Of a stretch of DNA of 39,675 nucleotides, positions 8,070-39,675 are shown in pieces (position 1 is the first letter of the stretch; each line of letters starts with the position of its first letter). Both the position numbers and the translations under genes were made by a program. The stretch is from Bacteroidota bacterium (GTDB taxonomy: Bacteria; Bacteroidota; Bacteroidia; AKYH767-A; JABDAW01): NCBI GenBank assembly GCA_013288905.1, contig JABDAW010000008.1, forward strand, positions 1 to 39,675, read 5' to 3'. The notes under the pieces are model-generated. The model had not been told where the DNA came from. It made no database searches and saw only the letters and a list, made by a program, of their open reading frames with translations.

Positions 8070-8386
8070 AAGCCATTAGGACATTATATCAGCAACAAAA
8101 GGCATCATCTTTAGCAAATATGGCATGTACAGAGCATAATGATATGCTTACTCAAGTAATTGTATTGCTTACTAAGGCAAGTAGGTATACTTGCTAAGGC
8201 AAGTAAGACATTTGCTAAGGCAAATAAGACATTTGCTAAGGTAAGTAGGTATACTTGCTAAGGCAAGTAGGGTTACTTGCTAAGGCAAGCAGGTATACTT
8301 GCTAAGGCAAGGAACATATTTGCTAAGGCAAGGAAGACATTTACCACGGTAAGTAAGTAATTATCTACAGTAAGCAGGTCATTACC
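8070..8386. repeat. 21/22-bp period tandem array 1 with internal dyads
   Basis: About 15 units; core unit TTGCTAAGGCAAGTAGGTATAC / TTGCTAAGGCAAGTAAGACAT; degenerate units on both sides keep the 21-nt spacing. Confidence 0.85.
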
Positions 8387-8641
8387 GAAAGCCGCGATGC
8401 TTTTTTCTTTAATAACAAGTGTTGGTGGGAGTGTGGAAAGTTGCGTGGATAGAGGGGATTGAGGCGGGTAAGGGTGAAATAGAGGAGAAAGAAGGATTGA
8501 AGGGGAAGTGTTTGAAATGTTCCATTTGTTTTGTTTCTAAAGTAATTTATGTAATTTTGGCAACTGAAAATGAAATCCTAAAGTTGGCATAATGTTTGTT
8601 TCTTTCTATGTTCTTAAACAAATTCTAAAAACTAATACAAA

Positions 8642-9865
8642 ATGAATTATTTAAAAATCGTCAGATATGTTATAATAGGGATAGCGATGCTTGCACTAAC
8701 TTTTGCAGTTGCTGCTTTCTTAAATTATCAAGGATTAAAGTATACCTATAATTTATTTTTTGAACGATTCTCCCATAACATTGGAATTAATATCTGGTTA
8801 CTTAAGTCAATGTCTGTAGTTTTTAGTATTATTGCTTTAGGCTTTGGTTTTAGATGGTTTTGGCAAGTCATTTCACCTTCTCCATTAATCAAAAGGGAGA
8901 CAAGAAGGAACTCTCTCATTGGTTTAGGCTCCTTTTTTATTTTATATTTTATGACTATGTATTTTTTCACAAGAGGAAATTTTGATCAAAAGTGTTATGC
9001 AGCAACATTAACTGGTGGATACGAATATTGTGATTGTGGAAATAAAGTTCATCCGATTTATGGAACAGAAGTTAAACCTGTTACTCCTGAAATGATTCCT
9101 GTTATTGAGAATCAAAATAATTTGTCAGTAAGTAATAGAGTTATCCCAACAAGAAACCAACAATTTTTCTTTAATGATAAACCTCTTTTATTCTTCTTTT
9201 CATATCCCAATGGTAAACTTGAGTTCTTTTCTAAACCTGGTAAGCACCCTCAATTTAATCAAGATTTGATACCAGTAAATACTGCTATAGTTCAAACGCT
9301 TTTTAGCTATTGGGATTCTGGGAGAGATTCAATGATTGTTACAGGAAGGGAAAATAAAAATACAAGCATACATTCCAATTCAAATAATAGTTATGGAGCT
9401 AATAATACAGGAAATTCCACAAATAAAACCGATCAATTTGTTTCTCAAAAAACTTGCAATGAATGTAACGGAACAGGGTTTTTAATTTCTAAAAATTCTT
9501 GTAATAGTTGTCAAGGTAAGGGAAAGACAAATTGTACCAATTGTGATGGTAAAGGAAAAGTGCCTTGTCTCGGTTATATTTTTGCTGGTCCTCATAAATT
9601 AAAATGTCCTCAATGCTATCCTGGTGGTTATACTTCACCAAAGGTTCAAGCAGGATGGGATGCTTTTTATGAAAAAATGAAGCATTGTGAAATATGTCAT
9701 GGTGCAGGAGAAATTAATTGCCCCGAATGTCAGGGTACAACATGGAAAAATTGTAGTTATTGCGAAGGCAAAGGACTTACAAATTGTAAAATATGTAGTG
9801 GTAGTGGATTGGTTGATTCGCATAAAACTTGTCCAACTTGCAATGGTAGTGGAAAAATTATATAA
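8642..9865 (+). CDS. Membrane protein with C-terminal DnaJ-type CxxCxGxG cysteine-rich region (no J domain)
   Basis: N-terminal TM segments; nine CxxC units including CNECNGTG, CNSCQGKG, CTNCDGKG, CEICHGAG, CSYCEGKG, CKICSGSG, CPTCNGSG. Confidence 0.85.
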   Translation: MNYLKIVRYVIIGIAMLALTFAVAAFLNYQGLKYTYNLFFERFSHNIGINIWLLKSMSVVFSIIALGFGFRWFWQVISPSPLIKRETRRNSLIGLGSFFILYFMTMYFFTRGNFDQKCYAATLTGGYEYCDCGNKVHPIYGTEVKPVTPEMIPVIENQNNLSVSNRVIPTRNQQFFFNDKPLLFFFSYPNGKLEFFSKPGKHPQFNQDLIPVNTAIVQTLFSYWDSGRDSMIVTGRENKNTSIHSNSNNSYGANNTGNSTNKTDQFVSQKTCNECNGTGFLISKNSCNSCQGKGKTNCTNCDGKGKVPCLGYIFAGPHKLKCPQCYPGGYTSPKVQAGWDAFYEKMKHCEICHGAGEINCPECQGTTWKNCSYCEGKGLTNCKICSGSGLVDSHKTCPTCNGSGKII

Positions 9866-9874
9866 ATAAATATC

Positions 9875-10084
9875 ATGTTCATAACTTGGCGTATAATCAT
9901 AGTAGTCTATGTAATAATTTGCTTAGGAATCGCAAGCATATTCTTTAAGATTCCAAAAGACGAAACAATACTTGTAGGGAAGAGAGATTATCTTCTTAAA
10001 AAGTTTTTGGCTAATATTTTATTGTGTTTAGCCATTACTCCTATCTTTTATTTTGTTGTTCAATCATTAAAGAAAAAGAAGTAA
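9875..10084 (+). CDS. Small membrane protein, unknown function
   Basis: 69 aa with two hydrophobic segments, immediately downstream of the preceding ORF. Confidence 0.55.
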   Translation: MFITWRIIIVVYVIICLGIASIFFKIPKDETILVGKRDYLLKKFLANILLCLAITPIFYFVVQSLKKKK

Positions 10085-10314
10085 TGACGATGAAACCGGA
10101 CATGTAGGCTTTTTCAGCCTTCCTGTATGGTTTCCCGTTTATTAATCATAATACCTTCTTAAATACAACATTAAAAAAAACTTGCTACCATACAGGAAGG
10201 CTAAAGCCTACCTTCCGGTTTCATTCTTTCATCGTTTTGAGATAGCGACCCCTTGGGAGCTGCATCAAAACGAAGATGAGAATTATTAAGCCGGAAAGGA
10301 TTTGTATCTTTGCA
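10085..10314. repeat. Palindromic repeat element copy A, ending in a -7 promoter
   Basis: Arms GATGAAACCGGACATGTAGGCTTTTTCAGCCTTCCTGTATGGT / ACCATACAGGAAGGCTAAAGCCTACCTTCCGGTTTCATTC; high similarity to copy B at 10942-11181; ends GGATTTGTATCTTTGCA. Confidence 0.85.
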
Positions 10315-10331
10315 CCTTAATAAATAGAATA

Positions 10332-10588
10332 ATGAATGCCATAAGAAAAATTGTAAAGAGAGAAGGCAATGAATTAAGGATTGTATTGCCTGATGATTTT
10401 AAGTCTGAAGAATTTGAAGTTATCATTCTTCCTTCGGATGAGGAAAATAATTCAAAGGGACATACTGATGAGGAATCCGAATCATTATACAAGCTCTCAT
10501 CTGATGGGCTGGCAAGGGCTTATGACGATGAAGATGATAGCTTCGACAATTAAAAGTTATGGAACCTAATCCCAAATACAATAAATGA
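10332..10588 (+). pseudogene. Antitoxin-like gene of a PemK/MazF-type module, apparent 3' frameshift
   Basis: ORF from ATG 10332 stops at 10553 (MNAIRKIVKREGNELRIVLPDDF...YDDEDDSFDN*); the offset frame continues ...KVMEPNPKYNK* to 10588, where the TGA overlaps the toxin ATG (ATGA). Confidence 0.6.
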
Positions 10589-10925
10589 AGGAAGGCGATA
10601 TAATTAGAATTCCATTACCACAAAATGATGGAAAAGTAAAACCTCGCCCTGTATTGTTATTAAAGAAACTTCCCCATTTGGAGATTGGTTGGTATGTGGA
10701 ATAACATCCAAAGTAAGACATGAAGTAAAAGATTTTGACATACTGATTTCTAACCAACATACTGATTTCATAAACTCTAATCTGCCTAAACCATTTTTAA
10801 TTCGATTAGGATTCATCGGAAGAGTTCAGGAAGAAATGATAGAAGGAGTAATCGGAAACGTAAGCCCAGAAACCTATAATCAATTGATAGCTAATCTGAC
10901 AAGATTCTTGAAGGATAAATCTTAA
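10585..10925 (+). pseudogene. PemK/MazF-family toxin, frameshifted near 10682
   Basis: Frame 1 MKEGDIIRIPLPQNDGKVKPRPVLLLKKLPHLE... stops at 10704; frame shifted by one base continues DWLVCGITSKVRHEVKDFDILISNQHTDFINSNLPKPFLIRLGFIGRVQEEMIEGVIGNVSPETYNQLIANLTRFLK. Confidence 0.8.
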
Positions 10926-10941
10926 TATCAATCATTAATTC

Positions 10942-11181
10942 TGACGATGAAACCGGACAGTTAGGTTTTAACCTTCCTGTATGGTTGCCCATTTATTAAT
11001 CATAATACCTTCTTAAATACAACATTAAAAAAACTTGCTACCATACAGGAAGGCTAAAGCCTACCAGCCCGGTTTCATTCTTTCACCGTTTTGTGATTGC
11101 ATTCCGCCCTTGCGGTGCAGCAATCCCGTACGTACGGAAATGATGAGCAATATCAAGCCCGAAAGGATTCGTATCTTTGCA
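10942..11181. repeat. Palindromic repeat element copy B, ending in a -7 promoter
   Basis: Same order as copy A: GACGATGAAACCGGACAG...CTTCCTGTATGGTTGCCCATTTATTAATCATAATACCTTCTTAAATACAACATT...; ends GGATTCGTATCTTTGCA. Confidence 0.85.
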
Positions 11182-11232
11182 GCCAACTAAAAAGCTGAAA
11201 AAGGAAATCAATTGAATTAAACAAAACCTAAA

Positions 11233-12687
11233 ATGACCTATGAAGAAAAGAGAAATCATGTTGACTTACTTCAAGAGAAAATAAATTCTTATGGGGAATT
11301 GAGTGAGGATATAAAAAAGAAGATAAACTATAAATTTCGTTTAGATTGGAATTACTATTCTAACAGTATGGAGGGCAATACCCTTACTATGGAGGAAACC
11401 CGAAGTGTAATGGTGGGCAATCTGACTGTAAGCGGCAAACCTATTAAAGATGTTCAGGAAATGATAGGACATGACAGATTGATTTCTGAAATTCTCAAAA
11501 TTGGTAAAGGGGATATTCGTATTTCGGAGGCAAGAATTCGTGACATTCATAAAGGTATTATGAATGAAGAAGATGAAACCAAGAAAAGCAAAATTGGTGT
11601 ATGGAAAACGGAGCCTAATTATATATATAATTATAAAGGGGAGCGATTTGATTTTGTACCGCCCAATGAAGTTCAAGAGCGAATGCATGAATTATTGAAT
11701 AAAACCAATGCTTCAATTGATGCGATTAAGATGGATAAAAAGGGAGCTCCGCATCCTCTTGATGTTGCTTTACAGTTTCATTTGGATTATGTGATTATTC
11801 ATCCCTTCTATGATGGCAATGGCAGAAATGCGAGGATTCTTACCAACCTGATTTTAATTTCCTTTGGCTATCCACCATTTTGGATTAAGACCGATGAACG
11901 AAATATTTATCAACAATACATTGGAGATATTCAAGGCTATGGTGGAAACTCAGAATTGTTTTTTGAGTTTTGTACTGGTTTAATTATGAGGTCACAACAA
12001 TTGGTTTTGGATGCTATTGAGGGGAAGGATATTTCGGGTTCAGAGGATTTTGATAAAGAAATTGAACTACTCAAGAGAATGCAAAACCCACCGAACCTAC
12101 AGAAAGTGAAATTGAAAAAATCAAAACAGGTGATGCAAAATGTTTTAAAAGAAGTGTATTTCCCATTGATGCAAAACCTGAATGGAAATCTTGTAAAGTT
12201 GGATAAACTTTTCAAGGAACATTCGTGGACATATTTTGAAGAACCCAAGCCACCGAAGCATGGCATACGAGTGTTCCCAAGCTCCGGTACGATAAATGAT
12301 TTAATCAAATATCTCTATTCAGTAACTGAAACTCGTGATGATTCTTTTCATCACTTCAAAGCTGCTTATTGGCTGATGGATTATAACGACCAAAATGATT
12401 TCAGTTTGGAAGTGTCTTTGAAAATTTATTTTGATGAATCAAATTACAGAATAAAAGTTTTCATCGGGCAGCCATTTGCAGGAGGAGTGATGGCGCAATT
12501 ATTTGTGAAAATGATAAAATCATTTGCCAAAGATGAGGAAACTCCTTTTGATTCTTACAAAGATTACGACATGCTTGAAGTGGAGTATGATGAAGCAATT
12601 TCAAAAGAAAAAATCATTGATTATTCAAATCAAATCAGCAATGAAGCGCTTACTTATATCAAGCAGAAAGTAAACGGAAAGAAATAG
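11233..12687 (+). CDS. Fic/DOC family protein (probable AMPylase) with N-terminal inhibitory motif and C-terminal extension
   Basis: Fic motif HPFYDGNGRNAR; N-terminal SNSMEGN matching (S/T)xxxE(G/N); about 220 aa beyond the Fic core. Confidence 0.95.
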   Translation: MTYEEKRNHVDLLQEKINSYGELSEDIKKKINYKFRLDWNYYSNSMEGNTLTMEETRSVMVGNLTVSGKPIKDVQEMIGHDRLISEILKIGKGDIRISEARIRDIHKGIMNEEDETKKSKIGVWKTEPNYIYNYKGERFDFVPPNEVQERMHELLNKTNASIDAIKMDKKGAPHPLDVALQFHLDYVIIHPFYDGNGRNARILTNLILISFGYPPFWIKTDERNIYQQYIGDIQGYGGNSELFFEFCTGLIMRSQQLVLDAIEGKDISGSEDFDKEIELLKRMQNPPNLQKVKLKKSKQVMQNVLKEVYFPLMQNLNGNLVKLDKLFKEHSWTYFEEPKPPKHGIRVFPSSGTINDLIKYLYSVTETRDDSFHHFKAAYWLMDYNDQNDFSLEVSLKIYFDESNYRIKVFIGQPFAGGVMAQLFVKMIKSFAKDEETPFDSYKDYDMLEVEYDEAISKEKIIDYSNQISNEALTYIKQKVNGKK

Positions 12688-12768
12688 AATGAACATAACA
12701 CTTGAAAAGTAAATCATAAACCTTTCAGAACATGGTGAGTAAACAAACTAAAAGGTAACGATGGCAAT

Positions 12769-12806
12769 CCTTACAGCCAATCGCCCCTTCGCGATTTGCT
12801 GTAAGG
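12769..12806. terminator. Strong hairpin between the convergent fic and GNAT genes
   Basis: CCTTACAGCCAATCGC / GCGATTTGCTGTAAGG, 16-nt arms with one mismatch and a 6-nt loop. Confidence 0.5.
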
Positions 12807-12952
12807 TTCTACTTCTACGTTGGCTTTAGACATTGAAAAAAGAATTCAAATTTATCTTGTTTATTAAACTATAGAGTTCAAGTATTCATACTTTTCCTAT
12901 CAGACTCGACCCATATCCTGCGACTTTGATTGAGAATTAAACATCAGCAGTC

Positions 12953-13474
12953 TTAATACTTCAAAAATAACTGATGATCTTGATTGCAATGCTTTTCTGT
13001 CAACTTAAACTCATGACTACCTATCATTTCAAATCCCTTTTTCTTATAAAAACGAATCGCTCTAAGGTTCTCTTTCCAAACATAAAGCCACATCCCAGAT
13101 TGATGATTTGCCTTTGATAATTCTATATTATAATTGAATAATTCATCCCCAATTCGCATTCCGTAAAACTCTTTCAGCAAATAGAATCGCTCTAACTTTG
13201 TGACATTTACCGCAGCAATATTTGGATGAGGAACATTAAAAACAATTTTCGAGAAACCTGCAAGAATGTTGTCATGGTAAATAAAGTGATAGTTGTTTTT
13301 TGCATCAGCTAACTCTGCCTTACAAACATCCCAATTATAATTTTCCAAGACATACTTATTAATATCTTCAGGGGCAGCACTTCTTCCGTGTGACTCTATA
13401 AAAGATTGGCTCGCAATGCCGGCAAATTCCTTGTAATCCTGTTCATTAGACTTAACAATAGTATTTTTATTCAT
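12953..13474 (-). CDS. GNAT family N-acetyltransferase
   Basis: LERFYLLKEFYGMRIGDELFNYNIELSK...LYVWKENLRAIRFYKKKGFEMIGSHEF typical GNAT motifs. Confidence 0.9.
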   Translation of the reverse strand: MNKNTIVKSNEQDYKEFAGIASQSFIESHGRSAAPEDINKYVLENYNWDVCKAELADAKNNYHFIYHDNILAGFSKIVFNVPHPNIAAVNVTKLERFYLLKEFYGMRIGDELFNYNIELSKANHQSGMWLYVWKENLRAIRFYKKKGFEMIGSHEFKLTEKHCNQDHQLFLKY

Positions 13475-13592
13475 GCCGACAAACTTATAATAATTTCTAT
13501 TATCATTTATTGCAGCCGCAAAAGGCGAAACTTATTTTTATTGATTACCCCAATTAAAATGTCAGGAAAAAAACAAATAAGAAATGAAGAAA

Positions 13593-15728
13593 CTACTTGT
13601 CCGATTTCTGCATTAATACCAAAGCATCTATAGCTTCCTTGTTGTCGCGATCAAGAAATAAAACTCTTTTGTAATGGGCTTTTGCAAGATAGTTTTGATT
13701 AAGGGCAAGGTAACATTTGCCTGCTGCAAGATTGTAATCCTTTTCTAATTTGAAATAGAGAATACAAGTTTCAAAACAAACCGCAGCTTCATCAAATCGC
13801 TTTAGTTCAAATAATGCATTGCCTTTATTATAAAGGACTCCATAGTTTTCATCCTTGTCAAGATTAAAAGCACGGTCATAATGTTGAATGGCATTCAGGT
13901 AGTCTTTCTGATCAAAATAAGTATGCCCAAGTTGTTTCTCTGCCTGACTACTTTTAGGATGTGTTTCGATGAATGATTTAAGAACTTTCTCTGCTTCATT
14001 AAATTCCATTTTTTGAGCCAGGAAATATGCTAGCCGTGTAGTCCAAAGATCTTTATCAGGTTCTTCGGCAATCAAGGTTTTACTAATCTTTATACATTCA
14101 TCCCAATCTTTTTTCGCATCATAAATATCAACAAGATTAGAATAAGAATTCAACCTCCACCATTTTATCTCATCGCCTTGTTGTTCGGTGAGTTTCCTAT
14201 ACAATGGAATAGCCTGATCCGGTGATTGCAATTCAAGATAAACATGTGCTTTGACGGAATAATAATTAGGATGAAAAGGAGGTCCAATTTTCTCAACTTG
14301 TTTAAACAATTCCAAAGCCTTTTGAAAGTTCTGATCTTTCAATTCCATGTTAGCATAACGAATAAGCAATACAGGCTCTTCGGGATGCTGTGCCAAAGCC
14401 TTCTTCATAATAATTCGCTTGTTTTTATTATCCCATTCTCTATCATATTTATCAAGGATAATATGCCAGTCCATCGAATCAAAATAGATATTTGTATCGT
14501 TCTTTACATCAGCTTCATAGCGTCTCAAAGTCTCTGCCCGCAAGTCATCCTGTTCATCAACCAATGGCTTGGAGACATCAATGACTTCTGTATCTTCATC
14601 ATGATCATTTTTCGCAAATGAATCTTGCAGGAAATATATAAAAGCAGTATAGACGCCCATGAATAATTTTTGCTCATCAACAAACTTTGACCAAGGATCG
14701 CTTATCTTTTCCCCTTCCTTCATAAGTTGGCTCCAAGCTCCTAAAAAATCCTGATGGTCATCATCAATTGAACTATAATCAAGAGACCGGCAATCCATAT
14801 CAAGAAAATTACTTACCATAGCATCTATCTTTTCAAACAAAGGTTCCTGATATTCTTCTTCATCATTATCCCAAAACGTCTCAAACCATTCTACCTCTTT
14901 AAAAGTTGCAGTACATTCGTTGCAAAATTGAGTAACCTCTCCCTGAAATTTAGTGATATGTTCATTGAAATCATCGGTACGCTTTTGACTTTCTTCGGGA
15001 GTAGGTACGGTAAAACTTATCACCTCACTGACCATTGAACCTTTCATAGTTGGAGGAGGGATGCAAATACTATTTTGGGCTTTATCCAGCTTCTCCTTCA
15101 AGGCAGGAATTTGTTCCCAAAGATGTGGCAACCTATTATGAAGATTATTGATTGCAGGAAGAACCTTTCTTATTCTCTGACCAATTCTAAATGAGGCATC
15201 ATGTAATGCTTTGTATTTCTTAATAAAGTCCTTCTCGAATTTATTAAACGGAATCTCTTCTTCATACTTAATATTAATATCTCTGAAAGGTGTTTCAAAC
15301 GTCAAGAGATCCTGCCTTATATGAAACCTTTCAAGCTGATAAGTAGGGGTTTGCATACTATCAACTTTTTCTATCAAATCAGTCTTACCATCATAAGCAA
15401 TAAAATCAGTAATAATTTTTTTTAATTTCTTATCGAGTTCAGGATTTGGTAAATCCTCTTTTCTTTCATTATTAAGCTCCTCAAATTCAGCACGAAACTT
15501 CGACCACATCTTGCTTTCTTCATGCTTCCAGTCGTACCTTCTGTACATTGGTTCATTCTTAATTTCCGTCTTACCTTCCTTAGCTAAGTAATCTATTTTA
15601 CCATTTGCATCAAGAGGATAAATGGTAAATCCATGCACGTCTGTTGACTTCTGTAAATCATCTGTTTCATTGATGAATCGAGCGAAGTCATCAATTGCTT
15701 TAGGTATTCTTTTCGTAACTTTTATCAT
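13593..15728 (-). CDS. Tetratricopeptide repeat protein
   Basis: C-terminal TPRs (e.g. KQLGHTYFDQKDYLNAIQHYDRAFNLDKD, VLYNKGNALFELKRFDEAAVCFETCI). Confidence 0.85.
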   Translation of the reverse strand: MIKVTKRIPKAIDDFARFINETDDLQKSTDVHGFTIYPLDANGKIDYLAKEGKTEIKNEPMYRRYDWKHEESKMWSKFRAEFEELNNERKEDLPNPELDKKLKKIITDFIAYDGKTDLIEKVDSMQTPTYQLERFHIRQDLLTFETPFRDINIKYEEEIPFNKFEKDFIKKYKALHDASFRIGQRIRKVLPAINNLHNRLPHLWEQIPALKEKLDKAQNSICIPPPTMKGSMVSEVISFTVPTPEESQKRTDDFNEHITKFQGEVTQFCNECTATFKEVEWFETFWDNDEEEYQEPLFEKIDAMVSNFLDMDCRSLDYSSIDDDHQDFLGAWSQLMKEGEKISDPWSKFVDEQKLFMGVYTAFIYFLQDSFAKNDHDEDTEVIDVSKPLVDEQDDLRAETLRRYEADVKNDTNIYFDSMDWHIILDKYDREWDNKNKRIIMKKALAQHPEEPVLLIRYANMELKDQNFQKALELFKQVEKIGPPFHPNYYSVKAHVYLELQSPDQAIPLYRKLTEQQGDEIKWWRLNSYSNLVDIYDAKKDWDECIKISKTLIAEEPDKDLWTTRLAYFLAQKMEFNEAEKVLKSFIETHPKSSQAEKQLGHTYFDQKDYLNAIQHYDRAFNLDKDENYGVLYNKGNALFELKRFDEAAVCFETCILYFKLEKDYNLAAGKCYLALNQNYLAKAHYKRVLFLDRDNKEAIDALVLMQKSDK

Positions 15729-15811
15729 TGTATTTTATATTTTTTAATTCATATATAATATTCAGTTCCCATTCATCATCCTACCAATAAGGAATCATTT
15801 TCTTTTACGAT

Positions 15812-15820
15812 GCAAAGATA
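15812..15820 (-). promoter_or_regulatory. Bacteroidota -7 element for the TPR gene
   Basis: Reverse complement TATCTTTGC upstream of the start at 15728. Confidence 0.5.
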
Positions 15821-15939
15821 GTTTATTTTGAATATTAAAGCATCTCTAATATAGGCTTACGTTTAGAACCAAATGTCTAAACGTTACTGAAATCTAAATC
15901 TTACTTCAGAATGGAATTTGAAAGATGATAATTTTATAT

Positions 15940-16590: not shown

Positions 16591-16593
16591 TTT

Positions 16594-19524: not shown

Positions 19525-19557
19525 TTTATTGCCTTAATTTTCTTTTAAATTCGAGGG

Positions 19558-19566: not shown

Positions 19567-19718
19567 CCTTATATATAGTATCCATAAAATCACTTAAACA
19601 GGTGAAATATTCAGGAACTATTTCCTAATATCACGAATATTGGTGATTAATAAATATTACGTTGTTCTTGAGGGATAATGCATTCCTCGGTTATGGGTTA
19701 AACCTGTTGATTCTATTT

Positions 19719-19843
19719 TTTTTAACCTTAGTAGAAAATTGAAGTCATGAGAGACTAAAGAACCTTATTACCTTATTTTATTCTTTATAATAAGGTAATA
19801 AGGTTGAATTTATCTTTGTTTTGTTTTCTACTAAGGTTAAAAA
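19719..19843. repeat. Nested double inverted repeat
   Basis: Outer 20-bp perfect arms TTTTTAACCTTAGTAGAAAA (19719-19738) / 19824-19843; inner 17-bp perfect arms AACCTTATTACCTTATT (19761-19777) / 19789-19805. Confidence 0.85.
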
Positions 19844-19898
19844 CAAATCAATAGTTTTATACCATGACCCCTTCGTCAAATTTAATTAGCAATGACCT

Positions 19899-20562
19899 GA
19901 TGGCAGAAAAAGCTGTCAGGATGGCAGAAAAATTCGACAGTATCAAGGAAAAACAGGCTTCAAATTACCATTTTCTATGGTTATTCTATTAAATAGAAGA
20001 ATCTTTAAAAATCATATTTTAGACTATTACGCACATTATCAGTGCATTCCAAGAAAAGTCATCGTCTTAAAAACAAAACTTGTCGTCTTTTTCCCAAAAC
20101 TTCCCGAAGTTTTCCCAAAACTTCCCGAAGTTTTCCCAAAACCTCCCGAGGTTTTCCCAAAACTTCCCGAGGTTTTCCCAAAACTTCCCGAGGTTTTCCC
20201 AAAACTTCCCGAGGTTTTCCCAAAACTTCCCGAGGTTTTGGTAAAACTTCCCGAGGTTTTGGTAAAACTTCCCGAGGTTTTGGTAAAACTTCCCGAGGTT
20301 TTGGTAAAACTTCCCGAGGTTTTGGTAAAACTTCGGGAAGTTTTGTTTTTAAGACGATGAGTTGATTCCAAATGACGACAAGAAAACTTTAATGGATGAA
20401 TGGTTGATTCCAAATGACGACAAGAGATCTTTGAAAGACGACAAGATGATTCCATAAGACGACAAGATAAAGAATAATGATGAACCTTTTATTCCAAATG
20501 ACGTTGCTTTAAATGATAATGATAGTGCTTTTGGTTTTTATGATGAATCATTCCAAATTTAT
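19899..20562. repeat. 21-bp period array 2 (composite), including a 12-unit core at 20091-20342
   Basis: Core: 7 units TTCCCAAAACTTCCCGAGGTT then 5 units TTGGTAAAACTTCCCGAGGTT; left flank GATGGCAGAAAAAGCTGTCAG/GATGGCAGAAAAATTCGACAG etc.; right flank GACGACAAG/GACGATGAG units at 20353, 20374, 20395, 20416, 20437, 20458, 20479, 20500, 20521, 20542. Confidence 0.9.
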
Positions 20563-24175: not shown

Positions 24176-24885
24176 AGAGAATAGTTGTCTTTACAGGATC
24201 GGGAGTGAGTGCTGAAAGTGGTATAAAGACCTTTCGTGACAGTGGTGGTTTATGGGAGGAATACAGAATAGAAGATGTTGCGACTCCTCAAGCCTGGCAG
24301 CGCGACCAAGCTCTTGTTCTTGACTTTTATAATCAAAGAAGACGGCAGGTTTTGGATGCCAAGCCCAATGCCGCTCACGTCGCCATTGCTGAATTACAAA
24401 AGAAATATGATGTGCAAGTCATCACCCAGAACATTGATGATCTTCATGAACGTGCAGGCTCCAAGAATGTATTGCATCTGCATGGAGAGATTCGCAAAAG
24501 CCGTAGCACCCTTAATCCATCGTTGGTTTACGATGTTGAAGGAACCGAACTAATCATCGGAGAGAAATGTACGCTTGGTTCCCAGCTTCGCCCGCATATC
24601 GTATGGTTTGGTGAGCAGGTGCCGATGATGGATGCTGCAGTTTCATTGACAGAAACCGCTGACATATTTATCGTCATCGGTACTTCATTACAAGTTTATC
24701 CTGCGGCAGGTTTGATCAGCCATGCGCCATACAATGCTGTGATGTATTTGATTGACCCTAATGCAGCTAAAATTCCTTATCTTCCAAATATTACAATCAT
24801 CAAAGAGCTTGCTGGAACTGGTGTTCCGGCATTGGTTGGTGAACTGTTGAAGAATTCAAAAGGAAAAAAAGGTATAGGGAAATAG
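24172..24885 (+). CDS. cobB: Sir2-family NAD-dependent deacylase
   Basis: TGSGVSAESGIKTFRDSGGLWE, TQNIDDLHERAG, HLHGE, LRPHIVWFGE, GTSLQVYPAA; ATG at 24172 overlaps the upstream stop (ATGA). Confidence 0.95.
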   Translation: MKRIVVFTGSGVSAESGIKTFRDSGGLWEEYRIEDVATPQAWQRDQALVLDFYNQRRRQVLDAKPNAAHVAIAELQKKYDVQVITQNIDDLHERAGSKNVLHLHGEIRKSRSTLNPSLVYDVEGTELIIGEKCTLGSQLRPHIVWFGEQVPMMDAAVSLTETADIFIVIGTSLQVYPAAGLISHAPYNAVMYLIDPNAAKIPYLPNITIIKELAGTGVPALVGELLKNSKGKKGIGK

Positions 24886-24943
24886 GGTATAGGGAAATAA
24901 AGAGAAAATAAATTAGTTATAATTCACAATAAATAAAATCAAA

Positions 24944-25498: not shown

Positions 25499-25506
25499 AC
25501 AGTTCG

Positions 25507-28904: not shown

Positions 28905-29175
28905 TGCTGCCGTTCAAAATTGATCTGTCCGAGACTACCGGACAACTGAATAAGCTCCTTATGGAGATGAATATGTCGCAAAACCAACTGAATGAACGAC
29001 AAATGCAACTGAATAAGTCATTCCAGGTACTGGTTAAACGAAAAATGTTCCTGCTTTCAGCATATATTCAGTTAGTTTTGCGATATATTCATCTACATAC
29101 ACGACAATTTCAATTGTCCGGTAGTCTCGGACAATCCATATTATATGGATTATTCCTAATTAAGATCAAGTTTTA
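28905..29175. repeat. 21-bp period array 3, arranged as a long imperfect inverted repeat
   Basis: 20-bp perfect outer arms TGTCCGAGACTACCGGACAA (28926-28945) / 29114-29133; CAACTGAAT starts at 28943, 28985, 29006 (42 and 21 nt apart); inner arms TCGCAAAACcAACTGAAT / ATTCAGTTaGTTTTGCGA. Confidence 0.85.
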
Positions 29176-29199
29176 AGACATTTTTAATCACCAAAAACT

Positions 29200-29892: not shown

Positions 29893-29907
29893 TTAAAGCG
29901 AATTAAT

Positions 29908-31839: not shown

Positions 31840-31840
31840 C

Positions 31841-31849
31841 TATGTTTGC
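31841..31849 (+). promoter_or_regulatory. Bacteroidota -7 element
   Basis: TATGTTTGC shortly upstream of the 31870 start. Confidence 0.45.
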
Positions 31850-31869
31850 ATCCATAAAAAACAAATAAA

Positions 31870-32286
31870 ATGATAACGGAACATAAGAAATATACAGTAG
31901 AGATAGAAAAAACTTATATAGCTTCACGCAAGAAGATTCGCGGATTATTTAAAGATAAAACCATTTTAAAGTTCACCGGAGCGGATAAAATAGAAGGAGA
32001 ATTCAAAACAGGAAGTGAGTTTAAATTATCATTCAAGGGTCGCGGAAAAATTATAGTGCATGTTATCTATTTTGTAAAAGGGCGTATCTGTTTATTATGG
32101 AATGTAAAGGGTTTTAATCTTCCAGAAGAATATTCATCAGTATATATTTATCTTGAAAAGAAAGGAAAGAAATGTCTCTTGACTTTAATTCATGAAGACA
32201 TCCTGCTTGAAGAATCCGCAAAGCTAAAAGACAAGGCTTGGACAGAGATTCTGGAAGATTTAGATAAGGAATTGAAGAAGGTTTGA
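31870..32286 (+). CDS. SRPBCC/AHSA1-like protein
   Basis: 138 aa: IASRKKIRGLFKDKTILKFTGADKIEGEFKTGSEFKLSF...VLLTLIHE-like fold pattern. Confidence 0.6.
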   Translation: MITEHKKYTVEIEKTYIASRKKIRGLFKDKTILKFTGADKIEGEFKTGSEFKLSFKGRGKIIVHVIYFVKGRICLLWNVKGFNLPEEYSSVYIYLEKKGKKCLLTLIHEDILLEESAKLKDKAWTEILEDLDKELKKV

Positions 32287-32319
32287 TTGGATTTATCAAT
32301 CCCTTTCATGCCTTATTTA

Positions 32320-32328
32320 TATGTTTGC
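32320..32328 (+). promoter_or_regulatory. Bacteroidota -7 element for the first lepB
   Basis: TATGTTTGC about 57 nt upstream of the ATG. Confidence 0.5.
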
Positions 32329-32384
32329 ATCCTTGATTATAATTTTATATATTGATTCTCGTTATAAGCCCTTAAATTTAAACT

Positions 32385-33854
32385 ATGAAAAAAATTCTTG
32401 CAAGACTTAACAACAGACAGAAAGCTTGGTTCTGGACTTTTACCATCGGTAATGCTTTATTCTTTCTATTCATCCTTATTTTAGCTGGAGCCGACTTTAT
32501 TAATGCGCTTGCTTTGTTGCTCATCACGCAATTCTTGGTTGTGGCATATTATATGAGTATCCGTAATGATAAGAAGAAAGGCGTTGCCCGCGAATGGTTT
32601 GATGCCATTGTGTTTGCTGTGGTTGCTGCGACGATTATCAGAGCATTTTTCCTGGAGGCTTTTACTATCCCTACCTCTTCTGAAGAAAAGACTTTGATGA
32701 TTGGTGATTTTCTTTTTGTAAGCAAATCAAGTTATGGAGCAAGGCTTCCTATGACTCCAATTGCTTTCCCTTTTGCTCATCATACCATGCCTGTTATTGG
32801 CGGCAAGGCATATATTGAATGGCCTAAGATTCCTTATTACCGCCTTCCCGGTTTTGGAAAGATTCAAAACTATGATGCAGTTGTTTTTAATTATCCAGAC
32901 GGCGATACTGTTGCATTGAATGCCCAGGATCAGAGCTATTATCAACTCTGTCGCGACTATGGAAGAGACAATGTTTGGAAAGATGATCAGATGAATCCGC
33001 AAACAGGACAGTCTTATTTTGGTAAGGTTGTGGCTCGTCCTGTTGATAAACGTGAAAATTATATTAAGCGTTGCGTTGCCATCGCTGGAGATACTATATT
33101 AATCAGGCATAAAGATGTTTTTATTAATAGCAAGCCATCTCTTAATGTTGGTACGATTCAATACAATTATTTAGTGCGAACTGACGGCAGTCAAATCAAT
33201 CAAAACATCCTTGAGAAGTTTGATATTACAGAACAAGTTCGCCAAGCTCCAAATGGAGATTATGAAGTTTTTATTCCTAATAATAAACTGGAAGATTTTA
33301 AACAAATAAGTATTATAAAATCTGTAAAACCCTTGGTTGAAGACAGTGGAGTTTATTCTTCGCGCATTTTTCCTCATAGTAAATCTTATGCCTGGAATGT
33401 TGATAATTTTGGACCTTTGGTAATTCCCAAAGAAGGCATGACTGTTGCCATTGACACTACTAATATTGTTTTATATGATAGAATAATAGGGGTCTATGAA
33501 CACAATGATTTGAAGGTTCAAGAGGGTAAAGTTTTTATTAATGGAAAGGAAGCCCATTCTTATACTTTCAAGATGAATTATTATTGGATGATGGGCGATA
33601 ATCGTCACAACTCCGCGGACTCTCGTTACTGGGGTTTTGTACCTCAAGACCATATTGTTGGTAAGGCTGTATTTGTATGGATGTCTTTGAAAGAGAACAC
33701 AGATATTTCTCATAAGTTTCGCTGGAATCGTTTCTTTACTTTTGTGCATCCTTATGGATTATCGAGGTCTTATTTAATTCCATTTCTTATTATCTTAGCT
33801 TCTATCTTTATTGCCTCTTATCTTTATGGCAGAAGGAAAAAGCATCATCGTTAA
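32385..33854 (+). CDS. lepB: Signal peptidase I (paralogue 1)
   Basis: TIPTSSEEKTLMIGDFLFVSK (Ser region), KRENYIKRCVAIAGD (Lys region), MMGDNRHNSADSRYWGFVPQDHIVGKA. Confidence 0.95.
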   Translation: MKKILARLNNRQKAWFWTFTIGNALFFLFILILAGADFINALALLLITQFLVVAYYMSIRNDKKKGVAREWFDAIVFAVVAATIIRAFFLEAFTIPTSSEEKTLMIGDFLFVSKSSYGARLPMTPIAFPFAHHTMPVIGGKAYIEWPKIPYYRLPGFGKIQNYDAVVFNYPDGDTVALNAQDQSYYQLCRDYGRDNVWKDDQMNPQTGQSYFGKVVARPVDKRENYIKRCVAIAGDTILIRHKDVFINSKPSLNVGTIQYNYLVRTDGSQINQNILEKFDITEQVRQAPNGDYEVFIPNNKLEDFKQISIIKSVKPLVEDSGVYSSRIFPHSKSYAWNVDNFGPLVIPKEGMTVAIDTTNIVLYDRIIGVYEHNDLKVQEGKVFINGKEAHSYTFKMNYYWMMGDNRHNSADSRYWGFVPQDHIVGKAVFVWMSLKENTDISHKFRWNRFFTFVHPYGLSRSYLIPFLIILASIFIASYLYGRRKKHHR

Positions 33855-33953
33855 AGTTACCAAAAGGTATTGGTAATAAGTGATAATGTAGAATTCATTA
33901 TTCATAATAATCATTCTTAAAAGAAGAAAGAATAATATCAAAATCTCTTTTTA

Positions 33954-35201
33954 ATGATAAGGAAATTAAGAAGCCTGAACCGCCGTCAAAGAAGGAGATT
34001 TAAGATTCTTTCTTTAATTAATCTGGGGTTTCTTTTGATTCTTTTATTCGGTGCAAAAGCAATTGTTCTTAATGCAGTTTCAATTTTCCTTATCAATCAA
34101 TTCCTTATTACCATTTATCACCTTTCTCTTAATCCTGAAGGCTCAAGAACTACAGTTGGCGAGTGGTTTCATGCTATTCTGTTTGCTCTTGTTGCAGCTA
34201 TTATTCTTCGTTCTTTTGTTGTTGAAGCATTCACTATTCCTTCTTCTTCAATGGAGAAAACTTTGCTGATAGGCGATTTTATTTTTGTAAGCAAAATTAA
34301 TTATGGTCCCCGCATTCCTATGACTCCAGTTGCCTTTCCTTTCACTCATCATACGCTTCCATATAGAGGTTTGAAATCTTATACGGAATGGTTGAAGCTT
34401 CCTTACTGTAGATTGCCTGGTTTTACTCATATCAGGAACAATGATGTGGTAGTTTTTAATTACCCGATGGAAGACTTCCGCCCTGTTGATAAACGCGAAA
34501 ATTATATCAAAAGATGTGTCGCGATCCCAGGCGATGATTTCATGATTGTTCATGGAAATATTTACATCAATCATCGTCGGCTTCCCTTTCCTGATCATGC
34601 TTTGCAGACTTATCATATCAAAGCGGATGATGATACATACTTTCAGGACAGCATCAGGTATGTTGAGGCTTATTTACCGCAATTAGTTTCTAATAAAGGA
34701 GATTATTTAGTCCCTCTTTCCAAGATTGGTTTGGAGCAATTGCATTCCATTAAGTGCATTATAAATGTTGAGAGATTAAGCCCTGAAGAAATCAAACATT
34801 ACTATCAAACTTCGCTCTTTCCTTATGACAAATTTCATGACTGGCAGGTTGATGATTTCGGTCCGATAAAGATTCCCAAGATAGGCGATACTATCTATCT
34901 TGATCATTCTAATATTGCCATCTATCGCAGGATTATTGAATCTTATGAGGGTAATAAATTTGAAGAGAAGGATGATAAAATATTCATTAATGACAAAGAA
35001 ACTTCTATATATAAATTCAAGATGAATTATTACTTTATGATGGGCGACAACCGTTATAATTCGGAGGACTCTCGCTTCTGGGGATTCGTACCCGAAGACC
35101 ATATCGTAGGAAAAGCTTCCATGATTTGGATGTCTTGGGATAAGGAAGCAAAGGGGTTTTCAAGGATAAGATGGAATCGGTTGTTCCGATTTATCAATTA
35201 G
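33954..35201 (+). CDS. lepB: Signal peptidase I (paralogue 2)
   Basis: TIPSSSMEKTLLIGDFIFVSK, KRENYIKRCVAIPGD, MMGDNRYNSEDSRFWGFVPEDHIVGKA. Confidence 0.95.
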   Translation: MIRKLRSLNRRQRRRFKILSLINLGFLLILLFGAKAIVLNAVSIFLINQFLITIYHLSLNPEGSRTTVGEWFHAILFALVAAIILRSFVVEAFTIPSSSMEKTLLIGDFIFVSKINYGPRIPMTPVAFPFTHHTLPYRGLKSYTEWLKLPYCRLPGFTHIRNNDVVVFNYPMEDFRPVDKRENYIKRCVAIPGDDFMIVHGNIYINHRRLPFPDHALQTYHIKADDDTYFQDSIRYVEAYLPQLVSNKGDYLVPLSKIGLEQLHSIKCIINVERLSPEEIKHYYQTSLFPYDKFHDWQVDDFGPIKIPKIGDTIYLDHSNIAIYRRIIESYEGNKFEEKDDKIFINDKETSIYKFKMNYYFMMGDNRYNSEDSRFWGFVPEDHIVGKASMIWMSWDKEAKGFSRIRWNRLFRFIN

Positions 35202-35413
35202 GACAATTCTGAATTCATGATTCCATACACATGATTTTAAATTATTAAAACACCTGTTTTATCCGTGTCCTATTTTCCGAAGAACTCTAATGTCTTCCTT
35301 TTATGACATAGCTTTTTTTGAGGCAATGCAATAAAAGGAGTATCGAAACAATTTTAAATTACGAATTACGAAAATAAGAAGTGCTTTTCTCATAATTCGT
35401 AATTTGAAATTCG

Positions 35414-35422
35414 TATGTTTGC
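35414..35422 (+). promoter_or_regulatory. Bacteroidota -7 element
   Basis: TATGTTTGC upstream of the amidohydrolase-like gene. Confidence 0.5.
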
Positions 35423-35461
35423 AGCCAATAATTAATTTAATCATTCTTATAAAATTGAAAT

Positions 35462-36754
35462 ATGAAGAATCTATTTGGGATACTATTTTGCGTTATATTT
35501 ACAGGATTTGTTTATTCCCAAAACCCTTCTCCTGCAAAGGACCAGGATAAACCTGTTTTAATTTCTAATGCGACGGTTCATATAGGGAATGGACTGATAA
35601 TAACGAATGGTGCTGTGGCTTTTACTAAAGGAAAAATTGTAGCAGTAGGCGAAGTTTCTAAATTGGGAATTGATGTGGCAGGTTATGATAAAATTGATGC
35701 TCAAGGAAAGGATGTCTATCCCGGCTTCATTGCTCTAAATACCATTTTGGGTTTGAGCGAAATAGAGGCAGCAAGGGCTACAAATGATTATGCTGAAGTA
35801 GGAAGTCTTAATCCTGATGTTCGGGCGATTATTGCTTATAATACCGACTCTAAAGTGCCTGCTACCGTGCGTTCTAACGGTGTATTGCTTGCACAGATAG
35901 TTCCGCAGGGAGGCCTTATATCGGGACAAAGCTCAGTTGTGGAATTAGATGGTTGGAATTGGGAAGATGCTGCCTATAAAATGGATGAAGGGATACATTT
36001 GAATTGGCCCTATATGTCTATAAACAGAGCTTCAGCAACCGAGACAGATGAAGTGCAAAGAGAAAGGATTCAGAAGAATTTGAATAACCTGAATGACTTG
36101 TTTAAAAATGCAAAAGCTTATAGCCAGATTAAGAACCCTGCTGAGAAGAATTTGAAATGGGAAAGTATGCGCGGGCTATTTGATGGCAGTAAAAAACTAT
36201 ATGTTCATGCATACAATGTAAAAGAAATAACTGCCGCAGTAAATTTCTGTAAAGAGTATGGAGTAAAGATGGTTTTAGTAGGTGGAAATGATGCATGGCG
36301 AACGACTGATTTATTAAAAGAGCAAAATATTCCTGTTGTTCTTGGACGCTCACATTCCCTGCCTATTCGTGATGATGAGGATATAGATATGCCTTATAAA
36401 TTGCCAGTAATATTGCAACAGGCGGGCATTAACTATTGTATAAGTATTGATGGTTTTTGGCAAGTAAGGAATATTTCATTTAATGCAGGAACTCCCGTGG
36501 CTTATGGGCTTACAAAAGAACAAGCCTTGATGGCAATAACTAATAATGCTGCGAAAATTCTGGGGATAGATAAACAAGTCGGTACGATTGAGGCTGGTAA
36601 GGATGCAACACTTTTTATATCCGACGGAGATGCTTTAGACATGCGGACGAGTAACCTAACTCAAGCTTTTATTCGTGGTAAAAACATTAATCTTGATAAC
36701 ATCCAAAAGCAACTTTATAAGAAATATATGGATAAATATGGATTGAAAGAGTAG
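35462..36754 (+). CDS. Amidohydrolase-superfamily-like secreted protein
   Basis: Signal peptide; ISNATVHIGNG...KGKIVAVG...DAQGKDVYPGFIALNTILGLSEIEAARATNDYAEVGSLNPDVRAIIAYNTDS; C-terminal AAKILGIDKQVGTIEAGKDATLFISDGD. Confidence 0.88.
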   Translation: MKNLFGILFCVIFTGFVYSQNPSPAKDQDKPVLISNATVHIGNGLIITNGAVAFTKGKIVAVGEVSKLGIDVAGYDKIDAQGKDVYPGFIALNTILGLSEIEAARATNDYAEVGSLNPDVRAIIAYNTDSKVPATVRSNGVLLAQIVPQGGLISGQSSVVELDGWNWEDAAYKMDEGIHLNWPYMSINRASATETDEVQRERIQKNLNNLNDLFKNAKAYSQIKNPAEKNLKWESMRGLFDGSKKLYVHAYNVKEITAAVNFCKEYGVKMVLVGGNDAWRTTDLLKEQNIPVVLGRSHSLPIRDDEDIDMPYKLPVILQQAGINYCISIDGFWQVRNISFNAGTPVAYGLTKEQALMAITNNAAKILGIDKQVGTIEAGKDATLFISDGDALDMRTSNLTQAFIRGKNINLDNIQKQLYKKYMDKYGLKE

Positions 36755-36775
36755 GGGAGTAGCTAATATAAATAC

Positions 36776-36784
36776 TATATTTGC
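36776..36784 (+). promoter_or_regulatory. Bacteroidota -7 element
   Basis: TATATTTGC about 50 nt upstream of the 36832 ATG. Confidence 0.45.
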
Positions 36785-36831
36785 CTTCTTAATAATTCAA
36801 AAATAATTTACCTTAATTAAAACATTCTATT

Positions 36832-37254
36832 ATGCAATTTCACAACATTAATCTCGTAGCCGTGCTGGTATGTGCGGTATCAAGTTTCATCATTGGCGGA
36901 ATATGGTATTCGCCAGTCCTCTTTGCAAGAAGTTGGGCAAAGGAACTCGGAAAATCTCCTGAAGATTTTAAGAAAAGCAGCCCTTTAGTACCAATGTTAA
37001 TTTCTTTTTTGGCATCCATTGTTATTGCTTTTGTAATGGCACATATTATTGTCTTTGCAGACACAGCAAGAGTAGTTCACAGCTTGAGAACTAATATTGA
37101 AACTGCAATTCTCTTGTGGGGTGGATTCACTGCCGCCACTTCCTTTGTGAATAAGGGATTTGAAGGTTATTCCATGACTCTTTGGGCAATTAATGTCGGT
37201 TACAGATTGGTTGATTTCATTGCTATGGCAGTGATTTTGACCTTGATGCCCTAA
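36832..37254 (+). CDS. DUF1761-like membrane protein
   Basis: SSFIIGGIWYSPVLFARSWAKELGKSPEDFKK and several TM segments. Confidence 0.8.
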   Translation: MQFHNINLVAVLVCAVSSFIIGGIWYSPVLFARSWAKELGKSPEDFKKSSPLVPMLISFLASIVIAFVMAHIIVFADTARVVHSLRTNIETAILLWGGFTAATSFVNKGFEGYSMTLWAINVGYRLVDFIAMAVILTLMP

Positions 37255-37338
37255 TTATTTTCTTCTATTATTGTTCTTTATTTCCGAAAACCTATTTAAA
37301 GGAGGGACATAGGTAGGTATTTAATTAAAGATGTTATT

Positions 37339-37929
37339 ATGAAAGGTTTGATTATATTTATTATTGTGTGTTCTATGGTAGAATGCAAATCTGGATCTGA
37401 TACAAATAATCATCCTATTGTTTCTTCCTCCTTTTATGACATTAATATTAGCACTGTTTCCAGTGAGCATGTTGCTCTTTCAAAGATAAAAAAGAGTAAG
37501 GCTTCGGTCTTTTTCTTTATGTCTCCTGAATGTCCGATATGTGAGAATTATTCTTTAACTATTAATGAAATTATTGAGACATTTAAGGATAAGAATATAG
37601 ATTTCTATTGCATCTTTCCGGGAACTTATTACAACAGGAATCAGATTCTGGAATATCTTACTAAATTTAAAATGGAGTTCATACCTTTATTAGATCCTCA
37701 ATTATTATTAACCAAAAATATTAATGCCAAAGTGATGCCTGAAACCTTTGTTATTGAATCTTCCGGCACCATTCTTTACCACGGAAGCATTGATAATTTA
37801 TATTATTCCATAGGTAAACAAAGAACTATTGTTACCGAGCATTATCTCAAAGACGTTCTTGAAAACATCGTTAATAATAAACCATTCGATGCTAAAAACA
37901 CCGAAGCTATAGGATGCTTTATTGAATAA
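37339..37929 (+). CDS. Thioredoxin-like/redoxin-domain lipoprotein
   Basis: Lipobox-like SMVEC; FFMSPECPICENYS CxxC motif; cis-Pro region KVMPETFVIESSGTILYHG. Confidence 0.85.
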   Translation: MKGLIIFIIVCSMVECKSGSDTNNHPIVSSSFYDINISTVSSEHVALSKIKKSKASVFFFMSPECPICENYSLTINEIIETFKDKNIDFYCIFPGTYYNRNQILEYLTKFKMEFIPLLDPQLLLTKNINAKVMPETFVIESSGTILYHGSIDNLYYSIGKQRTIVTEHYLKDVLENIVNNKPFDAKNTEAIGCFIE

Positions 37930-37947
37930 TATTTTGAAGGTATTTGC

Positions 37948-39324
37948 ATGAATTATTATATAAGGAAATATTTACTGAATGTCACAGAACTACTGATAGT
38001 TGTGGCTTTCATTACTTCCTGTAAGCATTCTGATAAAGTAACATTCGCTGAAACTATTGCTCCGATTATTTATAAGAATTGTACTACTTGTCATCGTCCA
38101 GGTTCTGACGCTCCATTTGATTTGATAACTTATAATGATTGCAAGAAGAGAGCTAAATTAATTCAGAAAGTTACCGAAACAAAGTTCATGCCCCCGTACC
38201 CTGCAGACCCTTCTTATTCTCATTTTATTGATGAAAAAGTATTGTCAGATAATGACATTAAATTAATAAAAGAATGGGTGGAGGAAGATGCCCCAATGGG
38301 TGATTCTGCAAAACTTCCCAAGCCGCCTCAATTTCCCAAAGGCTCACAATTAGGCATTCCAGATTTGGTTTTAAAGATGCTATATCCACATCATATTGTT
38401 GGTGATAATAAAGACAAATTTTATCTGATAAAAATCCCATATACTATTCCAAATGATACCTTCATCAGAGTGATAGAATTCATTCCTGGCACCCCAAAAG
38501 TAGTTCATCATGTCAATGGTCAGTTGATAAGTTATGATGAAGGCAAAAAGCAAGATATTTATGGCGGACAATATATCGTTGATATTGATTCCTTCAATCA
38601 TAAAGAAGGCTTTGAACGCATGCAGATCCCCAACGATGACGGCACTTATCCTACCTACACGCCTTCTGTTACGAATTATCTTCCGGGTGTCATTGCCACC
38701 ATATATCCTGAAGGAATCGGCGGCTATAAAATGGCTAAACAAGGCATGATTCTCTTTAGTGAAATACATTATGGACCTTCCCCGATTGCTTATGATGATA
38801 CTTCTTATTGCAATGTGTTTTTTGACAAGGAAAAACCTGTTCGTCCGACATTTGAATTGCAATTAGGTACGCTTGGTATTTCAAAAATTATTCCCCCACT
38901 TGTCATTCCTCCGAATACTGTCAAAAAATTCCACACAAGTACCTTTGTCGGAATGGATATTTCCCTGCTCACGGTCAATCCCCACATGCACCTTCTTGGA
39001 AAGAAGTTTCTCGCTTATGCCATAACGCCTTCCGGCGATACTATCCATTTGATTCGGATAAATAATTGGGATTTTCGCTGGCAATATTTCTATACTTTTA
39101 AACAAATGATTAAGATTCCAAAAGGCTCCTTGATTTATGCCGAAGGCACTTATGACAACACCACAAACAATCCATTAAACCCCTTCAATCCACCCCAAAC
39201 CGTGTCAGAAAAAAACGGAAGCATGAAGGTTACAGACGAGATGTTTCAATTCATCATGACTTATCTTCCCTATCAGCAAGGCGATGAAAATATCTCACTT
39301 GAGAATCCTAAATACAATCATTAG
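37948..39324 (+). CDS. Secreted cytochrome c / copper type II monooxygenase-like protein
   Basis: Haem motif CTTCH near the N-terminus; VHHVNGQL and NPHMHLLGKKF (PHM-like copper-ligand motifs). Confidence 0.8.
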   Translation: MNYYIRKYLLNVTELLIVVAFITSCKHSDKVTFAETIAPIIYKNCTTCHRPGSDAPFDLITYNDCKKRAKLIQKVTETKFMPPYPADPSYSHFIDEKVLSDNDIKLIKEWVEEDAPMGDSAKLPKPPQFPKGSQLGIPDLVLKMLYPHHIVGDNKDKFYLIKIPYTIPNDTFIRVIEFIPGTPKVVHHVNGQLISYDEGKKQDIYGGQYIVDIDSFNHKEGFERMQIPNDDGTYPTYTPSVTNYLPGVIATIYPEGIGGYKMAKQGMILFSEIHYGPSPIAYDDTSYCNVFFDKEKPVRPTFELQLGTLGISKIIPPLVIPPNTVKKFHTSTFVGMDISLLTVNPHMHLLGKKFLAYAITPSGDTIHLIRINNWDFRWQYFYTFKQMIKIPKGSLIYAEGTYDNTTNNPLNPFNPPQTVSEKNGSMKVTDEMFQFIMTYLPYQQGDENISLENPKYNH

Positions 39325-39340
39325 AATGTTCCGATTCATC

Positions 39341-39386
39341 ATCCTTATATTGCAGCAGCCAGAAAAGGCTACTATCATATAAGGAT
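39341..39386. terminator. Hairpin downstream of the last CDS
   Basis: TCATCCTTATAT ... AGCCAGAAAAGGCT ... ATATAAGGATGA. Confidence 0.6.
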
Positions 39387-39483
39387 GAAAAAATTGTTTA
39401 AAGTTAAAGCCTGAAATCTAAAGTTTGGGAATATTCGATATTACTTTAACGTGAATTCGGGATTAGAAATGAAAATTGATGCC

Positions 39484-39675
39484 GTTTTAAGCTCAAAGAT
39501 GTTATTTTTAAGCTACCTTCAACCTATTATGTAATTCCATTAAACTAATACATACCTCCTTCAACCTATTATGTACTTCCTTTAAACTATTATGTACTTC
39601 CTTTAAGCTAATATATACTTCCTTCAACCTATTATGTACTTCCTTTAAACTATTATGCACTTCCTTTAAGCTAAT
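39484..39675. repeat. 21-bp period array 4, truncated by the window edge
   Basis: Units ATTATGTACTTCCTTTAAACT / ATTATGTACTTCCTTTAAGCT / AATATATACTTCCTTCAACCT; TTTTAAGCT at 39485 and 39506 keep the same 21-nt spacing. Confidence 0.9.

Follow-up and report, generated by a model that had tools for sequence, protein, structure and literature searches.

The window analysed here, a stretch of 39,675 nucleotides, is the complete contig C8 of a Bacteroidota MAG (2.64 Mb in 209 contigs, 59% complete; labelled G000). Four of its intergenic regions contain arrays with a 21-bp period, for each of which the self-match at lag 21 was reached by none of 1000 dinucleotide-shuffled copies, the maximum being taken over lags 8–60. 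These are the four regions in which a preliminary description had noticed 21-bp units, and all four withstand the comparison, array 3 being weakly periodic. Their features are as follows.

8145–8420, unstranded: array 1, made of 21/22-bp units with the consensus CTTGCTAAGGCAAGTAGGTATA; TRF core 8168–8332.
8397–8464, plus strand: edge of array 1, belonging to the second edge family (TTTTTTCTTTAATAACAAGTGTTGGTGGGAGTGTGGAAAG).
20060–20081, plus strand: left terminal inverted repeat of array 2, CATCGTCTTAAAAACAAAACTT, 22 bp and perfect, from sequence and fold.
20089–20334, unstranded: core of array 2; TRF gives 21 bp, 11.7 copies and 97% match.
20338–20359, minus strand: right terminal inverted repeat of array 2, AAGTTTTGTTTTTAAGACGATG, from sequence and fold.
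20360–20503, unstranded: degenerate array of 42-bp period directly downstream of array 2 (TRF, 42).
28905–29175, unstranded: array 3, a degenerate 21/42-bp periodicity within one long imperfect hairpin.
28926–28945, plus strand: left arm of the inverted repeat of array 3, TGTCCGAGACTACCGGACAA, perfect over 20 bp.
29114–29133, minus strand: right arm of the same inverted repeat, TTGTCCGGTAGTCTCGGACA.
39516–39675, unstranded: array 4, with the unit CCTTTAAACTATTATGTACTT and a 63-bp higher order (TRF, 21/63).

Array 1 has a self-match of 0.51 at lag 21 and mixes units of 21 and 22 bp, which is why TRF reports a period of 22 for its core. Two sister copies are present elsewhere in the genome, identical to it over approximately 256–275 bp, with flanks that differ by 5–10%. 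Array 2 is the cleanest of the four (0.65 overall, 0.88 in the core); its units carry TTTTCCC in the left half and TTTTGGT in the right half, the switch occurring at the midpoint, and the two halves therefore pair with each other. Array 4 (0.72) is cut at the contig end because the window comprises the whole contig. Array 3, whose self-match is 0.40 for lag 21 and 0.415 for lag 42, is too degenerate to be called by TRF and folds as RNA into a single long imperfect hairpin of −103 kcal/mol; a more fitting description is that of a long inverted repeat, imperfect and weakly periodic at 21/42.

The distribution of periods was analysed in samples of two genomes, 1.17 Mb from this MAG and 0.90 Mb from the congener G002 (98% complete), the sequence sampled amounting to about 2.1 Mb over three congeners, the third being G001, also near-complete. 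In the own genome, 128, 133, 95 and 101 segments are found at lags 21, 42, 63 and 84, respectively, against at most 11 at any other lag between 8 and 100 and approximately 1 per lag in shuffled sequence; the genome-wide excess that the preliminary description had left to be checked is thus clearly present, at 21 bp and its multiples. Nearly all noncoding tandem repeats in the samples of the own genome and G002 have a period of 21 (primary period of 89 loci in the former and 156 in the latter) or of 42 (35 and 36 loci). Periods of 10, 11, 31 and 32 are absent among noncoding arrays, and there is no noncoding class with 63 only, such loci being mostly coding repeats. The two 21-bp halves of the 42-bp arrays are usually unrelated. 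An assembly artefact was rejected, as judged from the assemblies: the units contain distinct variants, three assemblies agree and orthologous arrays recur between species.

Array length is unimodal at about 200–260 bp, corresponding to about ten units, and the edges are more degenerate than the core. Arrays make up roughly 3–5% of the sampled genome and, among gaps of 300 bp or more, are found in 90 of 194 for the own genome and in 93 of 155 for G002 (46–60%), whether the bordering gene pairs are convergent, divergent or co-directional. Promoter elements were discarded as an explanation since every orientation class, convergent gaps included, contains arrays, and DNA curvature was discarded since the units have no 10.5-bp phasing of A/T (W/S) or AA/TT. 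The arrays might also be degraded coding repeats of a seven-residue unit, 21 being a multiple of 3 and some arrays having an open frame. Yet many have none on either strand, the short ORFs at true arrays mostly consist of nothing but the array, the units give no period-3 signal, and the genuine coding repeats of these genomes have other periods (63, 72, 45 and 54). Such an origin is extremely unlikely, and the arrays are noncoding as previously proposed.

The genome conserves the length of the repeat while its spelling differs at almost every site. Indeed, except for a small tail of related pairs, the similarity of units between loci equals that of the shuffled null, in agreement with the earlier view that length and architecture are kept whereas the unit sequence is specific to the locus. 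Matches of 14-mers elsewhere in the genome cover at most 5 of the 21 positions for every unit. The mean unit match is 0.47 in the own genome (controls 0.26–0.30) and 0.38 in G002 (controls 0.16–0.27), an excess too small for targets, so that guide-like arrays were not retained.

Three features had escaped the preliminary description: edge sequences proper to arrays, their independence from the array itself, and the confinement to a single genus. At least two families of edge sequences face arrays only, each at a minority of them. Read away from the array, the main edge motif is TTAATGTCTCC-GCGAC-TTTTTT, to which one subfamily adds CCCGTTATAAAACCCGATTTTCAGG; it recurs beside arrays with unrelated units and is present at roughly 10% of arrays. 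All 24 matches of the edge profile with E<0.1 in about 2.1 Mb, most of which were seeds, face an array at −15 to +14 bp. A sequence model of this edge, searched against whole genomes, finds 78 copies in the three congeners (20, 15 and 43) and not a single one in 28 further genomes from the order; this edge family is restricted to one genus. Five readable edge matches lie outside the sampled regions, and each of the five faces a 21-bp array with a new unit; the presence of arrays at these newly fetched loci is an independent prediction, which held. The second edge family, that of array 1 of the window, has seven matches in about 2.1 Mb of the three genomes, five of them seeds, all facing arrays. 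The main motif borders the start of the gene beyond it in 15 cases and the end of that gene in 9, and thus shows no preference for gene starts.

Edges and arrays are uncoupled in both directions. Besides the same edges next to unrelated units, there are three loci with homologous flanks and different arrays (L012:13573, L057:8147 and L049:9321), two of these arrays sharing a short TTTGAA core. Conversely, near-identical arrays are found in unrelated surroundings: five pairs are 86–96% identical (L004 and L035, L027 and L039, L133 and L131, L136 and L134, L097 and L144), with no flank homology detectable at the BLAST threshold. Alignment of L027 with L039 shows that the shared stretch stops at 24-bp terminal inverted repeats, and L004 and L035 also have about 40 bp of leader in common, which BLAST did not report. 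For most arrays, a sister copy was not detected. Arrays also differ by presence and absence between species: five of the six informative orthologous gaps (one of these five resting on a weak segment in the own genome) have an array in one species and none in the other, as for example between orthologous genes in L027 of the own genome (199 bp, no array) and L102 of G002 (627 bp, with array). In the sixth, the arrays are homologous and inverted.

Array density in G001 is similar. Small samples of G003 (same family) and G021 (same order) contained only 7-bp repeats, G027, from another family, has two weaker arrays, and the LpxB loci of the order contained none. Among 80 named Bacteroidota loci (1.39 Mb), a comparable array is present in one only, from a Rimov reservoir MAG (L170).

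Self-complementarity is enriched in the arrays, the palindrome z being about 0.9 for units of 21 bp and 2 for those of 42 bp. Complementarity is slightly but clearly higher around the array centre than around off-centre axes (0.0114, s.e. 0.0024), and strong inverted flanks border 8.6% of arrays compared with 0.4% of mismatched pairs. The idea that arrays are generally capped by an inverted copy of their unit was rejected, such a copy being seen at only about 10%. These properties bear on the possibility that the arrays are transcribed as hairpins acting as terminators, RNA stabilisers or regulatory RNAs. Predicted folds are more stable than those of column-permuted arrays (mean folding-energy z of about −2 where the period is 21 bp and −4 where it is 42 bp), arrays 2 and 3 of the window form array-wide hairpins, and a covarying hairpin with a TTTTTCT loop is found near some arrays. 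Against this, significant structure is lacking in about half of the 21-bp arrays, the two strands are structured to the same degree, arrays lie between genes of all relative orientations and no Rfam covariance model matches the window at the gathering threshold; moreover, nothing in RNA structure calls for a tandem period of 21 nt. The earlier suggestion of structured repeat RNAs is thus supported in part, self-complementarity being enriched yet neither universal nor strand-specific, and we regard such a function as very unlikely.

B-DNA has 10.5 bp per turn, and 21 bp correspond to two turns. Since 21 is the smallest whole number of base pairs that makes a whole number of turns, this would explain why a period of 42 is seen and periods of 10, 11, 31 and 32 are not. 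The same geometry would suit a function at the DNA level, in which in-phase sites are coated from one side by one protein or by a diverging protein family, meaning nucleoid organisation or gene insulation, with selection keeping the spacing while the sequence drifts. Consistent with it are the two-turn period (42 allowed, 31 and 32 absent), the unimodal length of about 200–260 bp, a dyad symmetry equal on both strands and the invariance of window array 1 among its three copies. Nevertheless, no site is common to the loci, unrelated sequences could not be recognised by one fixed protein through base contacts, the units have no 10.5-bp phasing and arrays are gained and lost at orthologous gaps. 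A DNA-level function is accordingly considered unlikely, albeit with some chance of being correct.

Passive minisatellites, produced by replication slippage in a hairpin-tolerant lineage without any dedicated mechanism, would account for edges that are more degenerate than the core and for the enrichment in palindromes. Also in its favour, searches for SbcD, a subunit of the hairpin nuclease, gave no hit above the cut-off in any genome of the order. However, the relatives in the order, equally without SbcD, have few or no arrays in the sampled sequence, and an absence that extends over the whole order is therefore at most permissive. Slippage yields many periods, and not 21 and 42 only, so that the period spectrum disfavours it, as do the array-specific edges. 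Loss of MutS1 was rejected as a cause, the protein being present in G001 and G002, both near-complete. Slippage alone is thus quite unlikely as an origin. With regard to other machinery, the sampled DNA yielded neither a transposase nor an autonomous parent element, and visual inspection of a few boundaries revealed no target-site duplication. Y1 transposases are no commoner in the genus than in its relatives, which speaks against RAYT/Y1 as the cause, and repeats made by a reverse transcriptase are unlikely, the array-rich G002 having no RVT_1 match.

We put at about even chances the reading that these arrays form a family of intergenic elements specific to the genus, which are short, dispersed and non-autonomous, number several hundred and have a core that is rewritten in 21-bp steps. 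At the heart of each element would be about ten tandem units of 21 bp (or 42 bp), a subset being bounded by conserved edge sequences or inverted repeats. Transposition or recombination may carry copies of the elements, or of array cores alone, to other sites, and tandem duplication with homogenisation would keep rewriting the core 21 bp at a time, a step that an enzyme or a DNA-bound complex would set. Counting against this family, besides the lack of a detected parent element and, for most arrays, of a detected sister copy, strong terminal inverted repeats are present at fewer than 10% of arrays and the main edge at about 10%, and indels in arrays are depleted only about twofold relative to other noncoding DNA; in addition, an array in duplicated segments can be better conserved than its flank, and the invariance of array 1 beside flanks that differ by 5–10% could mean selection or gene conversion and not free rewriting. 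Of the three options offered in the preliminary description (tandem protein-binding sites, structured repeat RNAs, and slippage or copying with a unit of fixed size), copying with such a unit is the best fit. A more specific proposal, which we put forward tentatively, is that a dedicated machinery recognises the edge of the array and the helical phase of the DNA, and not the bases, and builds or swaps arrays in exact 21-bp steps, giving each gene boundary a private repeat.

The nearest known relatives are the BrickBuilt elements of Porphyromonas, which in P. gingivalis are MITEs with an internal 23-nt minisatellite, present in 19 copies with one shared repeat (PMC4596501). Both occur in Bacteroidota, are intergenic, contain tandem repeats of 20-odd bp with leader and tail flanks, have partial terminal inverted repeats and predicted long stem-loops, and encode no internal transposase. 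Unlike BrickBuilt, the present arrays number about 190 loci per 0.9 Mb (in G002), have a different unit at almost every locus and a period of 21 or 42, not 23, and no IS-like ends were identified. A conserved leader or tail is found at a minority of arrays; as they have neither the shared internal repeat nor the 23-nt unit, they are not classed as members of BrickBuilt. The heptamer TAACTGA repeats of Beggiatoaceae, Cyanobacteria and Bacteroidetes (PMC4679880) likewise form many intergenic tandem arrays per genome, but with a conserved sequence and a 7-bp unit, as against a variable sequence and a 21-bp unit here. REP/BIME palindromes, GTAG- or CGTC-tagged (PMC3733652), are also short, intergenic, partly palindromic, numerous and sometimes clustered; they have a shared consensus, a tag and RAYT transposases, whereas here a unit consensus is absent and Y1 is not enriched. 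CRISPR arrays are as regular, some of the present arrays having conserved flanking sequence as well, but here repeats and spacers do not alternate and the units have no strong excess of matches elsewhere in the genome. The preliminary description did not recognise the arrays as CRISPR, REP or another named class, and the lack of spacers, of a REP consensus or RAYT excess, and of any Rfam match in the window bears this out. The literature searched, which left most subscription papers outside, contained no description of arrays with fixed period and free sequence. The arrays fit no repeat family known to us, and there is a real chance that these minisatellite-bearing dispersed elements are of a new kind.

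Repeat families are normally defined by sequence, whereas here the period is the trait conserved across hundreds of unrelated arrays. Such families are missed by sequence-based repeat finders and are found at once by a scan of the lag spectrum. What sets the period of a minisatellite becomes directly testable by comparison of loci, and the arrays show that a rule blind to sequence and tied to the geometry of DNA can shape bacterial genomes.

Many contigs of G002, one of three congeners rich in intergenic 21-bp arrays, start or finish within such an array, indicating that short-read assemblies are broken by the arrays and that array copy numbers are probably underestimated. Several further repeats and hairpins were located in the window and at sampled loci.

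Repeats and hairpins (L, sampled locus, with positions within it after the colon)
L094, L097, L100, L103, L107, L109: G002 contig ends inside 21-bp arrays
L145:6246; L130:12710; L148:10560; L160:5639; L143:13550; L056:15004; L005:18485: TTTTTCT-loop hairpin
Window 19689-19869, upstream of array 2: nested inverted repeat, AACCTTAGTAGAAAA ... TTTTCTACTAAGGTT, with inner hairpin AACCTTATTACCTTATT
Window 7942-8030 and 24871-24899; L014:1017-1179; L015:11689-11752; L021:11745-11788: GGTATA(A)GG / CCTATACC hairpin element
L004:3578-3954; L023:4715-4976; L026:5413-5621; L015:16489-16571; L061:13318-13401: heptamer arrays (TAGTGAA / TTCACTA)

The GGTATA(A)GG / CCTATACC element is a further dispersed intergenic type, forming imperfect hairpins from 7-8-bp motifs, and a sequence similar to the nested inverted repeat occurs at L031:7360-7504. 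The heptamer arrays, carried by the own genome and resembling 7-bp arrays in a same-family genome (G003) and an order genome (G021), look like the TAACTGA heptamer repeats described for other bacteria (PMC4679880). On the coding side, giant repetitive ORFs were observed at L010:8743-17613 (2957 codons; collagen-like repeats of 9/18/45/54/99 bp) and L021:1712-7849 (2046 codons; 63-bp repeats), as were two adjacent S26 signal peptidase genes at window 32385-35201.

The small TTTTTCT-loop hairpin keeps its loop constant while stem changes between copies are compensatory; 7 of the 11 copies in the sampled DNA lie <=120 bp from an array, such DNA making up 3.7% of the sample. Of 41 genomes from across the order, none gave an SbcD match above the curated cut-off, against 13 of 14 control genomes with a match (above the cut-off in 8), and the hairpin nuclease SbcCD may be missing from the whole order.
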